64,000 nucleotides of DNA from Actinacidiphila acidipaludis (GTDB lineage Bacteria; Actinomycetota; Actinomycetes; Streptomycetales; Streptomycetaceae): assembly GCF_019890725.1 (NCBI RefSeq), contig NZ_JAINZZ010000003.1, positions 124,001-188,000 of the forward strand. Reading direction: 5' to 3'. Shown piece by piece: positions 21,510-39,378 of this stretch; the stretch's first letter is position 1; each line of letters starts with the position of its first letter. A program made the position numbers and the translations under genes. The notes below the pieces were generated by a model. That model searched no databases. It had not been told where the DNA came from and worked only from the letters and a program-made list of their open reading frames with translations.

Positions 21510-21512
21510 CGA

Positions 21513-21549
21513 GGGCCCCGCGCCCGGCGTACCGGTGCGGGGCCCCGCG
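21513..21549. terminator. Original chromosomal pmt terminator, left of the element
   Basis: GGGCCCCGC and GCGGGGCCC arms around a 15-base loop, 37 bases identical to the copy at 37590-37626. It sits between the chromosomal hypothetical gene and attL, where the 3' end of pmt would have been before insertion. Confidence 0.85.
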
Positions 21550-21570
21550 GTGTCTCCACGTCATCGCGTA

Positions 21571-21677
21571 TCAGCTCGCCGACCTGGCTAGATCCAGGAG
21601 TCGAGCCACATTCGGGCCTGCCACCCGGAGTACGGGATCGTCATGCCCGTGTAGATCGGGAAGAAGTAGATGAAGTT
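21571..21677. other. attL: direct repeat of the pmt 3' end
   Basis: Matches 37637-37743 at 105 of 107 positions: 43 identical bases, a G/T mismatch at 21614, 18 identical, a C/G mismatch at 21633, then 44 identical. Read on the minus strand it would encode the last 30 pmt residues (N-F-I-Y-F-F to L-D-S-W-I stop), and both mismatches are synonymous (CGA/AGA Arg and CCG/CCC Pro). The crossover must lie in one of the identical blocks. Confidence 0.92.
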
Positions 21678-21694
21678 GCGGCTGGCCAGTGCCG

Positions 21695-22350: not shown

Positions 22351-23595
22351 TCAGGCGTCCAGGCCACCAAGCGGCCTGGACGCCTGGTAGACACTCTCGA
22401 CTGCCTTTCGAGTCCTTCCCTCGCTACTCGGCATCAAGTGCGTATACGTGCGGAGCGTGAACCCCGGATCGGCATGGCCGAGGTACTGGCTCAGCGCGCG
22501 GATGTTCTCCCCCGCGTCCAGCAGGACCGAGGCGTAGAAGTGCCGCAAGGCATGCATGCCGTGCTCTCGCGCTGCGGCGTACCGGTTGCCCTGTTCGGCA
22601 GCCGCGATGACGCCGGCAGCCGACAGAGCAGGCTTCCACATGAAATCGTTGAAGTAGCTCGCCCGGATGTGCTCACTGCTACTGCCAGTGAAGATGAGCC
22701 GCTTCGCCACGATCGGCCCATCGGGCGTCCGCCAGGGCAGCGCAACCTCGACGGCCGGGAATGCCTCCATGTGAGCCCGGAGCGCGCTAGCGACGGCCGG
22801 AGGGAGCGGAACGTCTCGCACCTTTCCGCCCTTGGGCAGGGCGAACACGTGCTTTCCGCGAATGCGCTTGAGCTGGTGGCCGACGGTCAGCCAGCCTCCT
22901 GCGAAGTCGATCTCGTCCAGGGAGAGGCCGAAGATCTCGCCTTGTCTGAGTCCGCATCCCGCTCCGGGGTCTACGGTCGCTCGCACACGTGCCGGCAGTG
23001 CTGCCCGCACTGCGAACACCTGCTGTGCCGTCCAGGGGCTGACGCGGGGCTTTCCCGGTTTCGGTAGCTGCACAGTCCGCGCCCGACATGGGTTCTTCGA
23101 GATCAGGCCGTCATCCACAGCGGCGCTCATCGCTGCGGAGACGGTTCCCACGATGATGCGGCGGTGCGATTCGGCGGGCACGGTCTTCTCAAGCTCGCTG
23201 ATCCATGTACGGATGTGCTCGGGCTTGAACGAGCCGAGGGGGCGAGTGCCGATGTGGGGATAGGCGTGCAGCCGAAGCCGTCGTTCGGCGGCTTCTCGGC
23301 TGTTGATTTCGCCGGTATGCGACTTCACCCAGCGCTCCGCGTACTGGCGGAAGGTGATGCGGGCCGCCCTGGGATCGACGTAATGGCCACGCATCATGTC
23401 GGCCTCAGTCTGGGCGAGCCACTGCTCTGCCAAGCGCTTTTGGCGGTCCGGGAAGCTCTTGCTCTTCTCGGTGCCGTCCGGTCCGATGTATCGGGCCCGG
23501 TAGCGCAGGCCGGTGCCGTAGCGCTCTGTCTTCACGGGACGGCCTGTGCCGTCGGGGTTGGTCCTGTACCAGCGGTCTTGGATGTGGCCTGCCAT
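22351..23595 (-). CDS. int: Tyrosine recombinase/integrase of the AICE
   Basis: A 414-residue phage-type integrase. An N-terminal arm-binding region (1-75, with R-Y-R-A-R-Y-I-G-P-D-G-T) is followed by a SAM-like core-binding domain (about 80-170) and a catalytic domain. Catalytic residues visible are Arg217 (G-L-R-Q-G-E), His348-x-x-Arg351 (H-A-L-R-H-F-Y-A-S), His374 (L-G-H) and nucleophile Tyr384 (T-Y-T-H-L). It catalyses recombination between attP and the 3' end of pmt. ATG at 23595 has TAGGAG upstream. It lies adjacent to attL with only DUF4259 between, and is separated from xis by a 16-bp hairpin. Confidence 0.95.
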   Translation of the reverse strand: MAGHIQDRWYRTNPDGTGRPVKTERYGTGLRYRARYIGPDGTEKSKSFPDRQKRLAEQWLAQTEADMMRGHYVDPRAARITFRQYAERWVKSHTGEINSREAAERRLRLHAYPHIGTRPLGSFKPEHIRTWISELEKTVPAESHRRIIVGTVSAAMSAAVDDGLISKNPCRARTVQLPKPGKPRVSPWTAQQVFAVRAALPARVRATVDPGAGCGLRQGEIFGLSLDEIDFAGGWLTVGHQLKRIRGKHVFALPKGGKVRDVPLPPAVASALRAHMEAFPAVEVALPWRTPDGPIVAKRLIFTGSSSEHIRASYFNDFMWKPALSAAGVIAAAEQGNRYAAAREHGMHALRHFYASVLLDAGENIRALSQYLGHADPGFTLRTYTHLMPSSEGRTRKAVESVYQASRPLGGLDA

Positions 23596-27073: not shown

Positions 27074-27865
27074 TCACACAGGCGGGATGTTGGCGGGGAG
27101 TCCGGTCAGGACTTTGGTGCGCCAGTTGAGGGCGTAGGGCAGGCAGTTGGCGCAGTTCTTGTGGGTGGTGTGGCCGGGCATGGGGGGTCGTCTGCGGGCG
27201 TGGTAGGACCAGGCGGCGGAGTCGGCGGATGCCATGAGGTGGCCTACGCGCTGGAGGCCGAGGGTTTTGAAGCCGAAGCCGTGCAGGGGTATGCCGTGCG
27301 CGGCCAGGGTGGTGACGATGGCGGCGCCGTCGTTGGTGGATTGGCGGCGGCAGACCGACCCGAGGCCGACGAGGGGTTCGCGGGTGAGGTCGATGCCGGC
27401 GCGCTGGTAGAGACCGACGCAGTGTTCGTAGTCCGGGAGCTCCCAGCCCTGGAGGACGGGCACGATCGGCAGGTCCGGGGCCAACTCGCGCAGGTGCAGG
27501 TAGTTGGCGACGGTGCGGTGTTGGTGTTCGGCCACGGATAGGCCGGTGCCGGTGAAGGTCTGTCCTGCGAAGGTGCCGCCGTGGATGATCGCGGGTTCGC
27601 ACATCCAGTCCTGGGGTGCGGCCCAGTCGAACGGGCCGACCTGATCGCGGATGCGCCGCAGGTCGTCCACGTAGTGCTGCGGGGTGATGGTCCAGGTGCC
27701 GAAGCGCTGGAGGATGGTGAAGCCACCGGAGTCGATGGCGTAGCGGCCGATGGCACGCGGCAGGCTGCGGGCGGTGCCCACGCCGAAGTGCTCGTACTTC
27801 AAGAACAGCGGCACGTCGGTGAGGGTGACCCAGTGCCGTTTGTGGGTGGTCAGGTAGAACCTCAC
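27074..27865 (-). CDS. DpdA-like DNA-guanine transglycosylase (7-deazaguanine DNA modification)
   Basis: A 263-residue TIM-barrel protein of the tRNA-guanine transglycosylase superfamily, DpdA type. Visible are D-S-G-G-F at residues 45-49 (the TGT active-site motif with the catalytic Asp), A-P-Q-D-W-M-C-E-P at 83-91, G-L-G-S-V-C-R-R-Q, H-G-F-G-F-K-T-L-G and S-A-D-S-A-A-W-S. A C-terminal H-x-x-H-x-x-C-x-x-C (His232, His235, Cys238, Cys241) is a likely zinc site. DpdA proteins exchange guanine in DNA for preQ0-type bases, which can block restriction. No dpdB/C or queCDE genes are in the window, so the base must come from elsewhere or the protein has another role. The GTG start overlaps the upstream gene (GTGA). 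Confidence 0.82.
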   Translation of the reverse strand: MRFYLTTHKRHWVTLTDVPLFLKYEHFGVGTARSLPRAIGRYAIDSGGFTILQRFGTWTITPQHYVDDLRRIRDQVGPFDWAAPQDWMCEPAIIHGGTFAGQTFTGTGLSVAEHQHRTVANYLHLRELAPDLPIVPVLQGWELPDYEHCVGLYQRAGIDLTREPLVGLGSVCRRQSTNDGAAIVTTLAAHGIPLHGFGFKTLGLQRVGHLMASADSAAWSYHARRRPPMPGHTTHKNCANCLPYALNWRTKVLTGLPANIPPV

Positions 27866-28393: not shown

Positions 28394-30556
28394 TCACTCA
28401 GCGTCACTCTCGGCGGTGTTCTCGGTCCGGTCGTCCAGTGCCTCACGGACCCTGCCCCGGTCCACGACCATGCGCCCATCGGACTTGCGGACCGCGCCGG
28501 AGGGGGCGAGGACCTCGCGCAGATCGGCGAACGTCCACTCCCGGTACTCGCGGCCGTTGCGCTCGGAGAGGCGGTGCAGCACCTCTTGGGTGCGCATCCG
28601 CTCCGCCTGCCCGAGCACCGCGTAGATGTCGGCGAGGTGGTCCACCACAACACCGACCGGAGCATCGGCAGCAGCGGCGGGCGTGATGCCTTCGCGCAGT
28701 GCCAACGCCCGCTGGACCACGGGTGTCACCTGGTCGACCTCGGCGTCCTTGCGGACGTAGTAGGCCCGGACCAGCTCGAACGCGTTCGACGTGAAGCCGA
28801 CCGTGAGGGCGGTGCCGATGTTTTCGGCGGGGTTGAGGGTGGTGGCGGTGATGCCGGCGCGGTGCTTGCCGGTGCCCAGCAGACCGTCGTTGGCGACGTG
28901 GTCTCCGACCGCGAACGCCACCCGATGGGAGGTGTTGCGGGTGACGTCCTTCGGGATGCTGGACGCGGTCGGGGAGACGGTGACGAACACCAGCGTGATG
29001 CCGACCTTCCGGGCCTTCTTGAGCACCTTGATGGCCAGCTCAGCGGCTTCCTCACCGTACTTCTTGTGCTCGAACAGCTCGTGGCACTCATCGAACACCA
29101 CCACGCGCGGACGCATGCGCGGGTCGCGTTCGGCAAGGTCGCGGGTGAGCTTGACGGTCTCCCCGCCCATCTCCTCCAGCAGCTTGCCGCGGCGGGTCAC
29201 CTCGTCGCGCAGGTCCCGCAGCGCATACAGGGCGTCTTTGACCTGCTCGTCCTCGTCGCCCTTGACCAGCGTGCGCAGACGCTCACGCATCGGGTCGTAG
29301 TCCACGTTGTAGGCCATGACGTAGACGTCGATCTCGACCAGCGGGTCGAGCATCGCGCCCAGCAGCAGGCCCACGACCAGGGACGACTTACCCGAGCCCA
29401 TGATGCCGCCGACCATGTAGTTGGAGGCCATGAGCTTGCCCATGACCGGCTCCCCACGCTGCGAGACACCGACCGGAACGCCCTTGAAGTAGTCCGCGGA
29501 CCCCTCCGTGAGCAGGGGCCAGGCGGGCACCTTCCCGGACAGTGAACCCTGGTCAGCCACCCACAGATCGAGGGTGCCGGGTGCGGTGCTGGGCTCGGTC
29601 GGCCACACCTCGACGGGCAGGCGCAGCAGGTTGTGGGCGAGCACGTCCTTGTGCTTGTTGATCATCTCGACAGTGACGCCCATCGGGAGCTGCAACTGGG
29701 TGTGCCAGCCCTTCCCCAGCCGGGTCGTCGGCTGGACCCATCGGGCCTGCCAACCAGCCTTGAAAGCCTGGTTGAGCGGACCGATACCCAGGTGCCGCAG
29801 GGCGTCCAGGATCGCGCCCTCATCCGGCACCACATCCCGCTGCTCCTGCTCGGAGGCGGGCAGGGCCCAGTTCGGCGCGGACTGCCCCTTGCGGCCGATG
29901 TTCCAAAGCGCCGCGAGACCCAGCCACGGTCCGAAGAACGTCGCAGGTCCCCACACGATCGACGCCAGCCACACCAGCGTGCTTATCGCGTGGATGGTGA
30001 ACATGATCGGGGCGATGGTCAGGCCCGGCTGCTTCTCGGCGATGGCCAGCACGATGCCCAGGGCCAGCAGGCCGCCCGCGGTTCCTGTGGTGCCGACCGC
30101 AGCGGACTTCACCACCCGCGGGGCGGCGGTCAGCAGCTCCATACGGCGCTTGTGGCGGTCCTCGCGGGCCTTGGCTGCCGCCTGCGCCCACTCCAGGGCC
30201 ACCTCGTGTTGACCGGCTGCCTCAGCGGCGCGCATCATCCGCTCATGTCGGGCGACCGTGCGCGCATCCCACGCGCGCTTTGCCACGATGCGAGCACCCC
30301 CCACCACATAGGCGGTGTGGCGGGCAGCAAGTCGTACACCGGTCTTAGTGCGGTCGTGGGTGACGACGTGCAGCGTCACACCCGCGGCACGCTTGAGGCG
30401 CACCCCCGTGGGCCGCGCGGCGGGGCGTTCGTCGGAGGGGATGACGACGCCCTCCAGCACCCGCGGAGCGTCCGCAGAGGTGGGGTCGGTGTCGTGCTTG
30501 GTGAGGTCGGTGACGGGCCGGGCCCGTCGTGTGCTGATGTCGATGATCTCGGTCAT
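28394..30556 (-). CDS. FtsK/SpoIIIE-type DNA translocase (TraB/TraSA-like conjugation protein)
   Basis: A 720-residue membrane-bound ATPase expected to move double-stranded DNA between hyphae. It has a charged N-terminal region, two to three membrane helices at about 150-215 (G-G-L-L-A-L-G-I-V-L-A and T-I-H-A-I-S-T-L-V-W-L-A), Walker A G-S-G-K-S-S (Lys390), Walker B V-V-V-F-D-E-C-H-E (Asp489, Glu490) and a C-terminal winged-helix region (E-V-L-H-R-L-S to D-L-R-E-V-L) of the gamma type that could read DNA repeats. ATG at 30556 is preceded by GGGAAG. Candidate recognition repeats lie directly downstream. Confidence 0.93.
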   Translation of the reverse strand: MTEIIDISTRRARPVTDLTKHDTDPTSADAPRVLEGVVIPSDERPAARPTGVRLKRAAGVTLHVVTHDRTKTGVRLAARHTAYVVGGARIVAKRAWDARTVARHERMMRAAEAAGQHEVALEWAQAAAKAREDRHKRRMELLTAAPRVVKSAAVGTTGTAGGLLALGIVLAIAEKQPGLTIAPIMFTIHAISTLVWLASIVWGPATFFGPWLGLAALWNIGRKGQSAPNWALPASEQEQRDVVPDEGAILDALRHLGIGPLNQAFKAGWQARWVQPTTRLGKGWHTQLQLPMGVTVEMINKHKDVLAHNLLRLPVEVWPTEPSTAPGTLDLWVADQGSLSGKVPAWPLLTEGSADYFKGVPVGVSQRGEPVMGKLMASNYMVGGIMGSGKSSLVVGLLLGAMLDPLVEIDVYVMAYNVDYDPMRERLRTLVKGDEDEQVKDALYALRDLRDEVTRRGKLLEEMGGETVKLTRDLAERDPRMRPRVVVFDECHELFEHKKYGEEAAELAIKVLKKARKVGITLVFVTVSPTASSIPKDVTRNTSHRVAFAVGDHVANDGLLGTGKHRAGITATTLNPAENIGTALTVGFTSNAFELVRAYYVRKDAEVDQVTPVVQRALALREGITPAAAADAPVGVVVDHLADIYAVLGQAERMRTQEVLHRLSERNGREYREWTFADLREVLAPSGAVRKSDGRMVVDRGRVREALDDRTENTAESDAE

Positions 30557-30642
30557 GCTGGGCTTCCCTGCTCTCTGGCATGAGGTGTGGGGCCCGGGCC
30601 GGCCGGATGTCTTGGCGGATAGGCGGCCGGTCCGGGGCGGAT

Positions 30643-30825
30643 TCACTTGCTGGCGTCGGCGCGCTTGCGTGCGCCGTCCAAGATGCGATCGAGCTTGCGT
30701 TGCAGGTCGCGCTGATCAACGTCCTCACCCGCAACGCCACGCTTGGCCATACGGGCGATCAGCCACGCCACGCGGGCGGCTTCCGCGCCGGTCAGCGGCG
30801 GGTCGTCGGGATGGGTGCGGATCAC
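30643..30825 (-). CDS. Small transfer-operon protein (60 aa)
   Basis: A 60-residue basic helical protein from a GTG at 30825: M-I-R-T-H-P-D-D-P-P-L-T-G-A-E-A-A-R-V-A, ending K-R-A-D-A-S-K. The start overlaps the preceding gene stop (GTGA). The W-L-I-A-R-M-A-K-R-G-V-A-G-E-D-V-D segment looks like a three-helix DNA- or protein-binding unit. No family recognised. It is the last of four overlapping genes upstream of the translocase gene. Confidence 0.7.
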   Translation of the reverse strand: MIRTHPDDPPLTGAEAARVAWLIARMAKRGVAGEDVDQRDLQRKLDRILDGARKRADASK

Positions 30826-34160: not shown

Positions 34161-36749
34161 TTAAGTGGTGCGGCGGCCAGTGCTTTCCTCGTCATAGTTG
34201 ATCATGTTTCGAACCATCTCATATGCCGGGGTCAGATCATACGACACACTATCCATCAGCTCGCGAGCTCGGGCTGGGTCGCCGTCCCTGAGTGCCAGGT
34301 AGGCAAGCATGTGAGAGACGGGCTCCCCTTTCTTATTTGCCTCCACTAGGTATGTGCGCGCCTTTTCGTAATCTCGTTTACGGAGGCAGAGCTGACCCAA
34401 ATGGTAGAGCGCATGGCCCTCGCCATTCTGTGCCGCCTTAGCGTAAATCCTGGTTGCAGCCTTGATTTTTCCTTGTCTCTCGTACAGAAATCCTAGGGCG
34501 GTGGCGCCTCGGTATTGCCCAGCATCCATGGCGCGTCGATACCAGAGCATGGCCTTATTTGGCTCCATGAGCGCCTCTTGAACCATTCCCATCTCGATGT
34601 AGTACTCGGGCTTTCCGGAGGCTAGAGCTTGGTTGATCCAAGACAGGGCTTCGCGCGGATCCCGGCTCTTGCGGCAGCGAGTAGAAAGATTAGCCATCGC
34701 TCGCACATCTCCGTCGGCGGCTGCTTCACGAAATAGTGCGTCAGCTTCTTCGTCGCGATCGGCCTTCTCCAGAAGTAGTGCCAGATTGTTTTTTGCGTAC
34801 TCCGAACCCATAGCTATCGCTTTTCTGTACAACTCTTCTGCTTCGTTCGCACGGCCATTCTTTGCTAGCAGGGCAGCGAGATTGAAGGCGGCATACTTAT
34901 CGTCAGCCTGAGCCAAGCGTTCGCGGTAGAGAGACTCTGCCTCCTCTGGCTCGCCTAGCTGGTTGAGAACCCCGGCCAAGTTGTTCGCCGCTTCAGCGTT
35001 GCCGGCCCTTATCGCCTGCCGGTAGGAAGAGGAAGCTGCCTCTAGGTCCCCATTTTCTTCTTGTGCGACACCCAAGAAGAACCAAGCGTCATCGTTATCG
35101 CCTTCGTCAATCGCCTGCCGAAGCCACTCCTCGGCTTTCCGGTAGTCGTCTTGATGAATGCAAAGGCGCCCCAGTACAGTCTTTGCTACGGGCGAATCTT
35201 TCTGCGCAAAAGAAAGAAATAGTTCTTTTGCTTCATCCAATTGGTCGTGAACTAGAAAATAGTTTCCGAGGTTGCGCATCGCGTGACCGTCGCCCTCTTG
35301 GGCTGCCTCTAGAAACCAATATGACGCTTCGTCTTCGCGACCGGAGCGACTCAGTACCAAGCCCAGGTTGTTCTTGGCTAGTAAACTTCCCTGAGAGATC
35401 GCCTTGCGGTACCAAAACTCGGCCTCTTCCAGGTCGTCGCGCTTGGCGGATATGTAGCCTAGGTGGAATGAGCCCTCGGAAATACCGGCAGATGCCAGAC
35501 GCTCGTATGCGCGGGATGCGTAGTCGTATTTGGCTGCCTTTTCGGCTCTATGTCCTACGCTATGCGTGACCTCTAGGGAAAAGTCATCGACAGCCGAATC
35601 CCATACTTCCTGTGGTAGTGATGGGTCTTTTTTGTCGCGAGCATGGGCTTCCGCAAGGTACTCGAAAGATCTATATGTTTCTTCCCCTACTGGTATTAGC
35701 AAGCTGCTTGTAGCATGTAGGGGCTCGAGTGCCCAATGGATGGCATCAAGCAGAGACTCGGGACGTAGGCGAGATCCGCCACGCTTATCTAGGTAGATGG
35801 CATGCAGTCGTTCTAGCAGTTGTTTAGAAATGGGCTCCCGGACCCCGGCGCGTCTCAAATCGACCGCAGCTGAAACAAGGGCGGCGCCGCGAGGGTGAAG
35901 GCCTGGCGACCAGGCATTCTGCCATTCGCGATAAAGCTGCGGGCCCGCCGCCAGATATTCTGCGATCCCATACTCGGATGCGTAGCGGCTTGCGTCCTTT
36001 ACTCGCGGGTCTTTAGACCGACTTGCCCGCTTTACCTCGTCATCGCTCCATTGCCGGTCTATGTAGAGTATGTGAGCCCTCGCCGTGACCCCTCTGGCTG
36101 CCCTGACAAGGGCTCTAGCCTCGGCGCTATGACCTCTTTCGTGTCGAGGTGACAGCAAGTCTAATTGATCAGCGCGCATAGTCCCGATGAGGACGGCGCC
36201 AGACCGCAATGCTTCATCCAGCGTGCTCGTCGAAATGGATGGGCGGCTAAGGAACCTATCGAGTTCGTCAAGCCAGATCACTTTGTCGCGCGACCGCGCA
36301 AAGGCCACACACTCTGCAAACTCCAGTCCATCTTCTGGCCGAAATGCGAGATATTCGGGAAATTTACTTTTGATGGCCTCGAAAGCAGTGCGTGACTTCC
36401 CCGATGTGGGGTCGCCTACGAGCAGTACGAATGCGCCTGGCTGCAATACGGCGTAGAGGTCCTCATCGATATCCCTGCGCACGTACTCTGGAAATTGAGT
36501 TTGGTTCCATGTAGCCGCTGGGTGTACGCCAAAGCTTACAGGGTCGCGATATTCCCGGAAGCGGAGAGTCCTGTCTAGGGCGAGCAGATGTGCAGTATTG
36601 GCCAACTCTTCCGGCGATCTTGCTCCGCGGCTGGCGTAGTAGATTTGGACGCCGTGATTTTGCTGGAAGGCCGTTCCGTGATCGTGAACGTCAGCAGATT
36701 GAGACGGCTTAGATGAACCGGCAGCTTCCCATTCAGATTCAGGTTCCAT
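34161..36749 (-). CDS. P-loop NTPase with Sel1/TPR-repeat C-terminus (candidate conflict/signalling protein, low G+C)
   Basis: An 862-residue protein. Residues 18-38 carry a peptide S-A-D-V-H-D-H-G-T-A-F-Q-Q-N-H-G-V-Q-I-Y matched in the neighbour gene. G-V-H-P-A and P-E-Y-V-R-R-D-I-D lead to Walker A G-D-P-T-S-G-K-S-R (112-120) and Walker B V-I-W-L-D-E-L-D-R-F (157-166). A helical region follows, and from about 410 to 830 some twelve degenerate 36-residue TPR/Sel1-like repeats (N-N-L-G-L-V-L, A-E-F-W-Y-R-K-A). No membrane segment or recognised nuclease or protease effector is visible. G+C is near half, against about 70 percent around it, indicating recent transfer. Similar P-loop-TPR proteins occur in Streptomyces. 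It starts one base after the partner gene stop. Confidence 0.85.
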   Translation of the reverse strand: MEPESEWEAAGSSKPSQSADVHDHGTAFQQNHGVQIYYASRGARSPEELANTAHLLALDRTLRFREYRDPVSFGVHPAATWNQTQFPEYVRRDIDEDLYAVLQPGAFVLLVGDPTSGKSRTAFEAIKSKFPEYLAFRPEDGLEFAECVAFARSRDKVIWLDELDRFLSRPSISTSTLDEALRSGAVLIGTMRADQLDLLSPRHERGHSAEARALVRAARGVTARAHILYIDRQWSDDEVKRASRSKDPRVKDASRYASEYGIAEYLAAGPQLYREWQNAWSPGLHPRGAALVSAAVDLRRAGVREPISKQLLERLHAIYLDKRGGSRLRPESLLDAIHWALEPLHATSSLLIPVGEETYRSFEYLAEAHARDKKDPSLPQEVWDSAVDDFSLEVTHSVGHRAEKAAKYDYASRAYERLASAGISEGSFHLGYISAKRDDLEEAEFWYRKAISQGSLLAKNNLGLVLSRSGREDEASYWFLEAAQEGDGHAMRNLGNYFLVHDQLDEAKELFLSFAQKDSPVAKTVLGRLCIHQDDYRKAEEWLRQAIDEGDNDDAWFFLGVAQEENGDLEAASSSYRQAIRAGNAEAANNLAGVLNQLGEPEEAESLYRERLAQADDKYAAFNLAALLAKNGRANEAEELYRKAIAMGSEYAKNNLALLLEKADRDEEADALFREAAADGDVRAMANLSTRCRKSRDPREALSWINQALASGKPEYYIEMGMVQEALMEPNKAMLWYRRAMDAGQYRGATALGFLYERQGKIKAATRIYAKAAQNGEGHALYHLGQLCLRKRDYEKARTYLVEANKKGEPVSHMLAYLALRDGDPARARELMDSVSYDLTPAYEMVRNMINYDEESTGRRTT

Positions 36750-36750
36750 T

Positions 36751-37161
36751 TTAGCTCTTGCGGTAATTCTGGATGCCGCTGATCTGCTGGAAATTCACGC
36801 CGTTATCTTGAACCGTTGCGCTCTGGTGAATTTCTCTCGCCTTAACTGGTGCGGAACTGTCTTCCAGATCCCTGAGTAGCTCCTTTAGAGGGGCTATCGC
36901 GCCGGGGTCTCTGGAAATCGCTGTGCACAGGAGGGCGAATACTTCGCTTCTCCTCTGCTCAAGCGCTTCAGGAGAGTTGTTTGCAATCGCCCGCTGCCGA
37001 AGTTCGTCAAGGCTTTGCCCAGCCGTTTGGGGGTCCCCTTCCGTTCTAGAAAAAATGTGAATGAGTCGCCCCTTAGCGGCGTTCCACCCGTCAGTGAGCA
37101 TTGTCGCCAAAAGTGTTTGTGCAGCTGGCGCTGCAAACTGAGCAAGTTCCAACTCGTTCAC
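36751..37161 (-). CDS. Small partner protein sharing a peptide signature with the P-loop/TPR gene
   Basis: A 136-residue protein (GTG at 37161, GGGGGGAA upstream). The N-terminus is helical, L-A-Q-F-A-A-P-A-A-Q-T-L-L-A-T-M-L-T-D-G-W-N-A-A-K-G-R, like small Streptomyces proteins that sit next to NTPase conflict genes. The C-terminus reads S-A-T-V-Q-D-N-G-V-N-F-Q-Q-I-S-G-I-Q-N-Y, aligning with residues 18-37 of the downstream protein. The shared peptide may be a beta-strand assembly tag that recruits the NTPase (inference). TAA stop, then one base, then the ATG of the NTPase gene: a translationally linked pair. Low G+C like its partner. Confidence 0.8.
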   Translation of the reverse strand: MNELELAQFAAPAAQTLLATMLTDGWNAAKGRLIHIFSRTEGDPQTAGQSLDELRQRAIANNSPEALEQRRSEVFALLCTAISRDPGAIAPLKELLRDLEDSSAPVKAREIHQSATVQDNGVNFQQISGIQNYRKS

Positions 37162-37562: not shown

Positions 37563-37589
37563 CCACCATGGACCACCAACAACGACCGG

Positions 37590-37626
37590 GGGCCCCGCGC
37601 CCGGCGTACCGGTGCGGGGCCCCGCG
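37590..37626. terminator. Element-borne copy of the pmt terminator
   Basis: 37 bases identical to 21513-21549, arms GGGCCCCGC/GCGGGGCCC. It follows the minus-strand stop of pmt at 37654 by 10 bases of different sequence (the left copy has a 21-base spacer). So the element carries its own terminator as well as the coding 3' end. Confidence 0.85.
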
Positions 37627-37636
37627 TCGTCTGGTT

Positions 37637-37743
37637 TCAGCTCGCCGACCTGGCTAGATCCAGGAGTCGAGCCACATTCTGGCCTGCCACCCGGAGTAGG
37701 GGATCGTCATGCCCGTGTAGATCGGGAAGAAGTAGATGAAGTT
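37637..37743. other. attR: direct repeat inside the 3' end of pmt
   Basis: Pairs with 21571-21677 (105/107 identical). It supplies the last 30 codons and stop of pmt, so integration leaves the gene intact. It contains a rare AGA Arg codon where attL has CGA. Confidence 0.92.
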
Positions 37744-39378
37744 CCAGATGATGAGCAGGACGAGGGTGCCGGCGCCCACCGCGCCCCACATCCGGCGGCC
37801 CTCACTGGCGCCCGGTGGGCCGAGGAACGCGCCCACCATCATCGCCACCGCCAGGCACAGGTAGGGGACGAACGCCACCGCGTAGAAGTAGAAGATCGTC
37901 CGGTCCTGGTAGTGGAACCACGGCAGCCACCCGGCGCCCAGCGCGCACAGGATCGCGCCGGCCCGCCAGTCGCGCCGCATCGCCCACCGGAACAGCAGAT
38001 AGACGATCGCGAAGCACGCCGACCACCACAGCAGCGGCGTCCCCAGCGCCAGGATCTCCCGCGAGCAGCCGGACGTCGTGTGGCAGCCGTCCTGCCCGTA
38101 CTTCGGCGACTCGAAGTAGTACGACACCGGCCGCCCCAGCACGATCCAGCTCCACGGGTTGGACTGGTACGGGTGCGGGGTGTGCAGGCCGACGTTGAAC
38201 TTGTAGACCTCGTGCTCGTAGTGCCACAGGCTGCGCAGCGGCGCCGGGATCCACGACCAGGTGCCGCCGCGGTCGTCGGCCCAGTGCCGGAAGTAGCCGT
38301 TGCCGGTGACGAACCAGCCGGTCCACGTCAGCAGGTAGGTGACCAGCGCGACCGGCAGCATCGACAGCACCGACCAGCCGAGGTCCTTCCGCAGCACCGC
38401 CAGGTGCGGGCGCCGCGCCCCGGCCAGACGGCGCGAGCCGACGTCCCACAGCACGGTCATGATCATGAAGAAGGCCAGGAAGTACAGGCCGTTCCACTTG
38501 CTGGCCGCGGCCAGTCCCAGGAAGAAGCCCGCCGCGAGCCGCCACGGCCGCCAGCCCATGCCCGCCCGGTCGCCCGTGTGCTGGTCGGGCCCGGCGAAGC
38601 CGTCCTCGCCGACCGGCAGCGCCGCCGCCAGTCTGGCTCTGGCCCAGTCCCGGTCGATCAGCAGGCACCCGAACGCCGCCAGCGCGAAGAACATGATCAC
38701 CAGGTCGAGCAGCGCGATCCGGCTCATCACGTAGTGCAGGCCGTCCACCGCCATCAGCGTCCCGGCCACGCAGCCCAGCGCCGTCGAACGGAACAGCCGC
38801 CGCCCGATCCGGCACAGCATCAGCACCGACAGGCTGCCGAGCAGCGCCATCATGAAGCGCCAGCCGAACGGGTTCAGGCCGAACATCCACTCGCCGGCCG
38901 CGATCACCCACTTGCCCATCGGCGGGTGCACGACATAGCCGGGGGCGTCGGAGAGGGGGATGGTCTGCGGGTGCGCCAGGATCTGAGGGTTGGAGATCTT
39001 GCCGTCCGGCCAGCTGCCCTCGTAGCCGAGCTTCAGCAGCGCCCAGGCGTCCTTGGCGTAGTACGTCTCGTCGAAGACGACCTCGCGCGGGCTGCCCAGG
39101 TGCCAGAAACGGATGCCGCCGGCGACGGCGGCGACGAGCAGCGGACCGAGCCAGCCCGACCACCGCGCCAGCCGGTGGGCCGCCACCGGGCCGAGGCCCA
39201 GCATCTCCCACATGCGGGTCCCGGGCTCGGGAAAGGGCGGGACCAGGCGTTCGCGGGTGTCGGTCCGGGGACGCTCGGCGTAGCCGAAGCGACGCAGGCG
39301 CCGCGCCCAGGGACTGGCGTCGGCCTGCACCCGGACCTCCTCGTCGACGCGGTCCTGCGTCGCGGTGTCACTCGTCAC
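37654..39378 (-). CDS. pmt: Protein O-mannosyltransferase (GT39), target gene of the AICE
   Basis: A 574-residue polytopic membrane glycosyltransferase that moves mannose from polyprenyl-phosphomannose to Ser/Thr of secreted proteins. The first outside loop has the catalytic acidic motif F-D-E-T-Y-Y-A-K-D. Also visible are H-P-P-M-G-K-W, R-F-M-M-A-L-L-G-S-L, A-S-K-W-N-G-L-Y and a C-terminal W-L-P-W-F-H-Y-Q-D-R-T-I-F-Y-F-Y, all typical of bacterial Pmt. About eleven hydrophobic helices. GTG start at 39378. The last 30 codons lie in attR and are therefore partly element-derived, without change to the protein. Streptomyces Pmt is needed for phiC31 infection (family knowledge). Confidence 0.94.
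   Translation of the reverse strand: MTSDTATQDRVDEEVRVQADASPWARRLRRFGYAERPRTDTRERLVPPFPEPGTRMWEMLGLGPVAAHRLARWSGWLGPLLVAAVAGGIRFWHLGSPREVVFDETYYAKDAWALLKLGYEGSWPDGKISNPQILAHPQTIPLSDAPGYVVHPPMGKWVIAAGEWMFGLNPFGWRFMMALLGSLSVLMLCRIGRRLFRSTALGCVAGTLMAVDGLHYVMSRIALLDLVIMFFALAAFGCLLIDRDWARARLAAALPVGEDGFAGPDQHTGDRAGMGWRPWRLAAGFFLGLAAASKWNGLYFLAFFMIMTVLWDVGSRRLAGARRPHLAVLRKDLGWSVLSMLPVALVTYLLTWTGWFVTGNGYFRHWADDRGGTWSWIPAPLRSLWHYEHEVYKFNVGLHTPHPYQSNPWSWIVLGRPVSYYFESPKYGQDGCHTTSGCSREILALGTPLLWWSACFAIVYLLFRWAMRRDWRAGAILCALGAGWLPWFHYQDRTIFYFYAVAFVPYLCLAVAMMVGAFLGPPGASEGRRMWGAVGAGTLVLLIIWNFIYFFPIYTGMTIPYSGWQARMWLDSWI

Follow-up and report, generated by a model that had tools for sequence, protein, structure and literature searches.

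The 64,000-nucleotide window of Actinacidiphila acidipaludis analyzed here contains two adjacent genes, of which one encodes a receptor composed of a short tag, a P-loop NTPase and TPR repeats, and the neighboring small one ends in a matching tag. We consider it probable that this pair is a two-gene NLR-like signaling unit of the BASS type with an nSTAND3-like receptor, in which the tag of the sensor would template and activate an arresting effector.

The Gene Pair and Its Common Tag

The gene layout of the original prediction, namely an 862-aa and a 136-aa gene separated by one base, was borne out; both genes are on the minus strand and the 136-aa gene comes first, with a stop-to-start spacing of 1 base. 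The features of the pair are the following:

36751..37161, minus strand: small-protein gene, 136 aa, helical-type domain (residues 1 to about 105) and C-terminal tag; likely effector
36763..36825, minus strand: C-terminal tag of the small protein, residues 113-133
34161..36749, minus strand: NLR-like receptor gene, 862 aa, tag, STAND-type P-loop NTPase and TPR/Sel1-like repeats
36636..36701, minus strand: N-terminal tag of the receptor, residues 17-38
36390..36416, minus strand: P-loop GDPTSGKSR, residues 112-120, read from the sequence
36252..36278, minus strand: IWLDELDRF, residues 158-166, with W159 and D161 unchanged across the 26 aligned rows
34260..35552, minus strand: TPR/Sel1-like repeats, likely the sensing part, Pfam TPR models above cut-off

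Homologue searches returned relatives for each of the two frames (12 proteins for the small protein and at least 164 for NTPase residues 1-430, the window's own copy counted in both), and both are therefore regarded as real genes. The G+C contents of the receptor gene (0.554) and the small gene (0.543) were lower than those of 10 other measured genes in the window (0.646-0.788); the G+C content, earlier put at about half, is thus low against its surroundings, but its actual value is 54-55%.

The peptide proposed to be common to both proteins was confirmed. QSATVQDNGVNFQQISGIQNYRKS (small protein, residues 113-136) and QSADVHDHGTAFQQNHGVQIYYAS (NTPase, residues 17-40) aligned without gaps, with 13 identities over 24 columns, and the local score of the tags was 58, compared with a best score of 41 among 2000 shuffled pairs (mean 20.5, s.d. 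4.0). When the receptor tag was compared with the C-terminal 60 residues of each of 540 open frames in the window, the score was 58 for the partner and 41 for the runner-up. Across 13 orthologues, the mean column identity of the receptor tag (residues 22-38) was 0.91, as against 0.28 before the tag, 0.59 after it and 0.74 in the NTPase core. Across 12 homologues of the small protein, the corresponding value was 0.79 for the tag versus 0.40 for the preceding linker, with 0.81 for residues 1-36 and 0.57 for residues 37-98, suggesting that constraint on this protein falls on the tag and on the N-terminal segment. On the evidence of its sequence conservation, the tag is under selection.

Domains and Class of the Receptor

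The P-loop and TPR architecture originally proposed for the receptor held up, the TPR repeats being found by Pfam and the P-loop being read from the sequence with six of its residues (G112, D113, T115, G117, K118 and R120) invariant in a 26-row alignment. The motif IWLDELDRF is presumably the Walker B motif. Solved structures matched by the receptor profile were TPR and Sel1 proteins. Pfam gave only sub-threshold rows for the window NTPase, to nSTAND3 (PF20720, 11.6 bits vs a cut-off of 27.2) and AAA; the tagged homologue P0038 passed the nSTAND3 cut-off with 28.7 bits, and PF20720 was present in 5 of the best 120 of at least 164 receptor homologues. Neither NB-ARC nor NACHT gave a Pfam row at E 1 for the window NTPase. 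These comparisons suggest that the receptor NTPase is not of the NB-ARC or NACHT class and that its nearest class is nSTAND3.

No Sir2 row was given by Pfam for the window pair, and PADLOC gave neither an Avs row nor any other meaningful match for it; PADLOC analysis of 8 relatives likewise yielded nothing meaningful, with weak TIR rows for P0042 only. A tblastn search with the receptor found 13 plasmid records, every one below 60% identity, and no match in phages, and no viral contig matched the C-terminal 279 residues of this protein.

The N-terminus of the receptor is occupied by TIR in four relatives (P0039, P0040, P0042 and P0066). In a quick tree built from 98 NTPase cores, drawn from 207 de-duplicated rows with three untagged classes entered as samples, the minimum number of changes of the N-terminal label was 3 for the FQQ tag (the type found in the window), 2 for a second tag, 2 for TIR (4 rows) and 10 for membrane segments. 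These label changes suggest that the receptor N-terminus is an effector-side slot that is freely swapped. At another locus (L081:132-2689), a receptor relative has an AVAVGG peptide in common with the product of an upstream gene, for which a membrane segment is predicted; this upstream protein contains a second, similar copy of the peptide.

Identity of the Small Protein

The small protein matched no Pfam family above cut-off, and its profile gave a best E of 0.07 against solved structures. Membership of EAD2 was rejected, since the score was 20.2 bits against a cut-off of 23.8 and no row at E 1 was obtained for P0002, a homologue with 74% identity. No clear transmembrane segment was found in the small protein (best 19-residue Kyte-Doolittle mean, 1.26).

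At the locus L148, a single chain consists of the small domain, the tag and the receptor, and at L121 the small domain is fused to NB-ARC. The original prediction of a small partner linked through the tag is supported as to the link. The small protein is likely an effector rather than a mere partner; it is probably cell-arresting and probably membrane-directed.

Pairing across Tagged Loci

Receptors bearing the FQQ tag were found under 13 locus identifiers, which were merged before counting into 8 distinct places (the window, L019, L020, L021, L024, L032, L036 and L070). A small gene with a C-terminal tag lay directly upstream of the receptor in all 8 places, the pairing in L024 being seen after the receptor start was shifted to an inner methionine. 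Judged by an equal length of the longest contig, an NTPase relative appears to lie on the same contig for 10 of the 12 small proteins, the window included; the other two, P0008 (on a 951-base contig) and P0012, were without a matching receptor among the receptor search results.

The small domain itself is more widely distributed, occurring in 83 of 394 Streptomycetaceae genomes (profile search, E 1e-6). Among 31 small-domain loci read with a flank of about 1.5 kb, 3 had a tag-matched neighbor (a membrane protein in L002, an NB-ARC protein in L130, and L112, which is the same place as L019), 1 was a fusion (L121) and 27 were without a match, which argues against the small domain being always part of a two-component system and is compatible with pairing in trans. 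Two loci in the window's own genome were noted. In L002:1495-2639, the small-domain gene and the gene that follows it, whose product is a membrane protein and not an NTPase, have a YQAGRD tag in common; in L003:643-1905, the small-domain gene and the preceding gene end alike by eye (ARDGGTVYAVQYGDQ and ASGHGVIYATQNGDQ), C-terminus to C-terminus.

The original prediction had staked the two-component idea on conservation of the peptide in orthologous pairs and on homologues being accompanied by their partners. The tag is conserved in orthologous pairs; as for partners, the FQQ-tagged receptors were always paired, but the small domain at large was mostly unpaired. Recruitment through the common tag is supported by this conservation together with the pairing of all distinct FQQ loci. 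A generic docking device describes the tag less well, and by analogy it is best explained as a homotypic signaling motif like the published bacterial amyloid signaling sequences.

Exchange of Tags and Putative Effectors

A profile of the window's small domain, from which the tags had been cut off, was scored against the partners at other loci. It recognized the partners in L021 and L036, both of which are inside the profile, and found the domain in L148, which is outside it, with an E of 1.6e-17; it missed the partners in L020 (E 4), L024 (E 13) and L146 (E 2.6) and gave no row for L023 and L081. The FQQ tag is nevertheless carried by the small proteins in L020 and L024, which have no detectable homology to that of the window, indicating that one tag type serves at least two kinds of small protein.

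The receptor family uses, as judged by sequence patterns, at least two tag types: the FQQ type and a second type (SGG..Q..VV.. and similar). Receptors with the second type were found at 11 loci, after four false positives of the regular expression (L017, L089, L106 and L155) had been removed by inspection. The second-type tag was common to the receptor and the upstream gene in L023 and L146, the single-chain locus L148 also belongs to this type, and a tagged neighbor was absent from the stretch examined in 8 of the 11 loci. Nine small-domain genes (L114, L118, L124, L127, L129, L130, L134, L135 and L137) were also seen to carry a C-terminal tag of the SGG/NGG..Q type, with no tag-matched neighbor except in L130; pairing in trans is possible for the unpaired tags of this type.

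In 12 matched pairs, the mean tag score was 60.3 for cognate versus 29.5 for non-cognate combinations, a contrast that is inflated because the matrix took only pairs in which a match had already been found (L142, with the domain beside NB-ARC and no clear match, was excluded); the count of 8 paired FQQ places is unaffected by this selection. None of 100,000 permutations reached the observed cognate sum, and the cognate partner was top-ranked in 9 of the 12 rows and 8 of the 12 columns. Taken as sequence patterns, these comparisons show that the tags are conserved, agree within each pair and can be carried by partners unrelated to one another.

The Carrying Integrative Element

The integrative setting implied by the earlier mention of AICEs was borne out: the two genes lie inside an integrative element of about 16 kb that is bounded by two copies of the pmt 3' end. 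In addition to a Prim-Pol primase, the element contains the following features:

21510..21684: left att-like direct repeat, duplicating the 3' end of pmt and agreeing with the right repeat in 150 of 168 columns
22351..23595, minus strand: integrase, Phage_integrase 49.5 bits, cut-off 27.1
27074-27865, minus strand: DpdA-family gene, PF23859, E 1.1e-75
28394..30646, minus strand: FtsK/TraB-type transfer protein, FtsK_SpoIIIE 31.5 bits, cut-off 24
37587..37750: right att-like direct repeat, formed by the 3' end of pmt

DpdA is named for the 7-deazapurine modification of DNA.

A survey of the genus (35 genomes) showed that, apart from the window's own genome, 9 contain an additional short copy of the pmt 3' end, in 7 cases on the same contig. 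Five such pmt loci were read; four of 14-17 kb have a related integrase (67-88%), and L185 has a backbone as in the window element (primase genes, 80-91%; transfer gene, 77%). The receptor and the small gene were absent from all five. The existence of related elements without the pair suggests that the pair is variable cargo next to the right end. Within the genus, insertions recur at the pmt 3' end (window, L185-L189), and the cargo immediately inside the right end differs; L187 has in this slot a 506-aa HTH protein gene with low third-position G+C (0.54). A receptor relative with a long untagged N-terminus in Streptomyces sclerotialus (L092:1470-8436) also adjoins pmt, together with rsmI.

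Comparison with Known Systems

BASS motifs are described from filamentous bacteria, where they occur N-terminally in an NLR and C-terminally in a small Bell effector, and their association with Bell effectors is credited to Dyrka et al. 2020 (PMC7889193, PMC8086366, PMC9815663). All 8 FQQ loci, the window pair among them, agree with this description in having adjacent genes with a short motif at the receptor N-terminus and the effector C-terminus; a small, helical-type candidate effector, a TPR receptor and an actinobacterial, filamentous host are further likenesses. The window pair differs in that its receptor has the repeats but is nearest nSTAND3, without an NB-ARC or NACHT match, in that it is carried on an integrative element, and in that its amyloid nature is proposed from sequence likeness. 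NB-ARC does pair with relatives of the small domain, in L121 and L130. Compared by description, the small protein fits Bell in size and position, whereas Bell is described with a hydrophobic segment and the small protein has no clear transmembrane helix.

Against a 34-tag profile, three published amyloid-forming peptides outscored nearly all or all of their shuffles (8, 6 and 0 of 500 equaled the peptide), and a published non-aggregating peptide fell below most of its own (487 of 500 as high), in a comparison that comprises only these four peptides, the sigma and negative ones being long. By hand alignment, the tag core is one residue shorter than the BASS3 peptide. The published 21-residue BASS3 peptide was found in two plasmid places, both of which lack a small effector resembling that of the window; near a BASS3-peptide place (L142), the small domain adjoins an NB-ARC TPR gene.

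The anti-phage system Avs5 (AVAST type 5), which is described as nSTAND3 with TPR or Sel1 repeats and a Sir2 N-terminus (PMC12931631), resembles the window receptor, whose NTPase is nearest this class, in the succession of NTPase and TPR/Sel1 repeats; its Sir2 effector lies in the same chain, whereas the window receptor has the tag in that place and the effector is a separate gene. The proposed templating from receptor to effector by a short Q/N/G motif is also a likeness to fungal HET-S/HeLo-type NLRs and animal RHIM (PMC7889193, PMC7885112), although sequence homology with the window tag is not claimed. Among the titles and abstracts retrieved on amyloid NLR signaling and defense, no nSTAND3 receptor was found.

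Proposed Mechanism and Alternatives

The BASS-like architecture suggests a sequence of repeat sensing, NTPase oligomerization, tag templating and arrest by the small protein. The TPR region would sense an invader or stress, upon which the NTPase would oligomerize; the clustered N-terminal tags may then fold into a beta-arch and act as a template for the tags at the C-terminus of the small protein. The polymerized small protein, through its conserved N-terminal helix, would hit the membrane or otherwise arrest the cell, as proposed for Bell. The integrative element may carry the pair as cargo that protects the host or the element. The amyloid, toxic and defensive roles of the pair are ascribed to it here by analogy.

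Tag matching alone cannot separate amyloid from other homotypic binding, and the tags might instead pair as a short beta-zipper or via a common scaffold, giving recruitment without prion-like templating. This would follow the principle of EADs, homotypic modules that occur as closely related copies in adjacent genes (PMC7159879) and link a core NTPase protein to adjacent-gene effectors (PMC7159879, PMC8195603). We regard such a non-amyloid adaptor as unlikely, because EADs are folded domains whereas the window tag is about 20 residues long and fits no EAD model, EAD2 being the sole weak match, and because its Q/N/G pattern resembles published amyloid motifs.

Still less probable is a regulatory or antitoxin role of the small protein, which would cap the receptor through the tag and hold it inactive, the effector then being the receptor or a host protein. 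The small gene is always first, with tight spacing, and the abundance of orphan small-domain copies in Streptomycetaceae would fit a housekeeping or regulatory role; against this, the domain fused at the receptor N-terminus in L148 and L121 takes the place of TIR in relatives, which is the effector position. Plain gene fission, with the tag as a functionless relic of a split fused protein, has a fused form in L148 to recommend it and is nonetheless very improbable, as the tag outlasts its flanks in the 13 orthologues and occurs on two other kinds of small protein.

Returning to the BASS-type signaling unit, a broader and more tentative reading, to which we give somewhat less than even chances, is that nSTAND3 receptors have an actinobacterial prion-signaling branch, in which a templating tag would replace the built-in effector and adjacent-gene effectors would be interchangeable, with a possible network in trans between receptors and orphan effectors of one tag type, and carriage by integrative elements.

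Implications

The logic of such a unit is already known from BASS; what is new to us is the receptor class, the swaps of tags and effectors, and the fusions, the tag having been set against BASS by description and by a few published peptides. The biological role of bacterial NLR-amyloid cascades is called a blind spot in PMC7889193. A pair that is compact and mobile, whose tag is constrained and which has natural variants of the tag, effector swaps and fusions, makes this role accessible to experiment, including which tag fits which receptor, whether templating is prion-like and whether phage is arrested. If the proposed reading is true, it would tie an Avs-type receptor to the prion-like logic of fungal and animal cell death.
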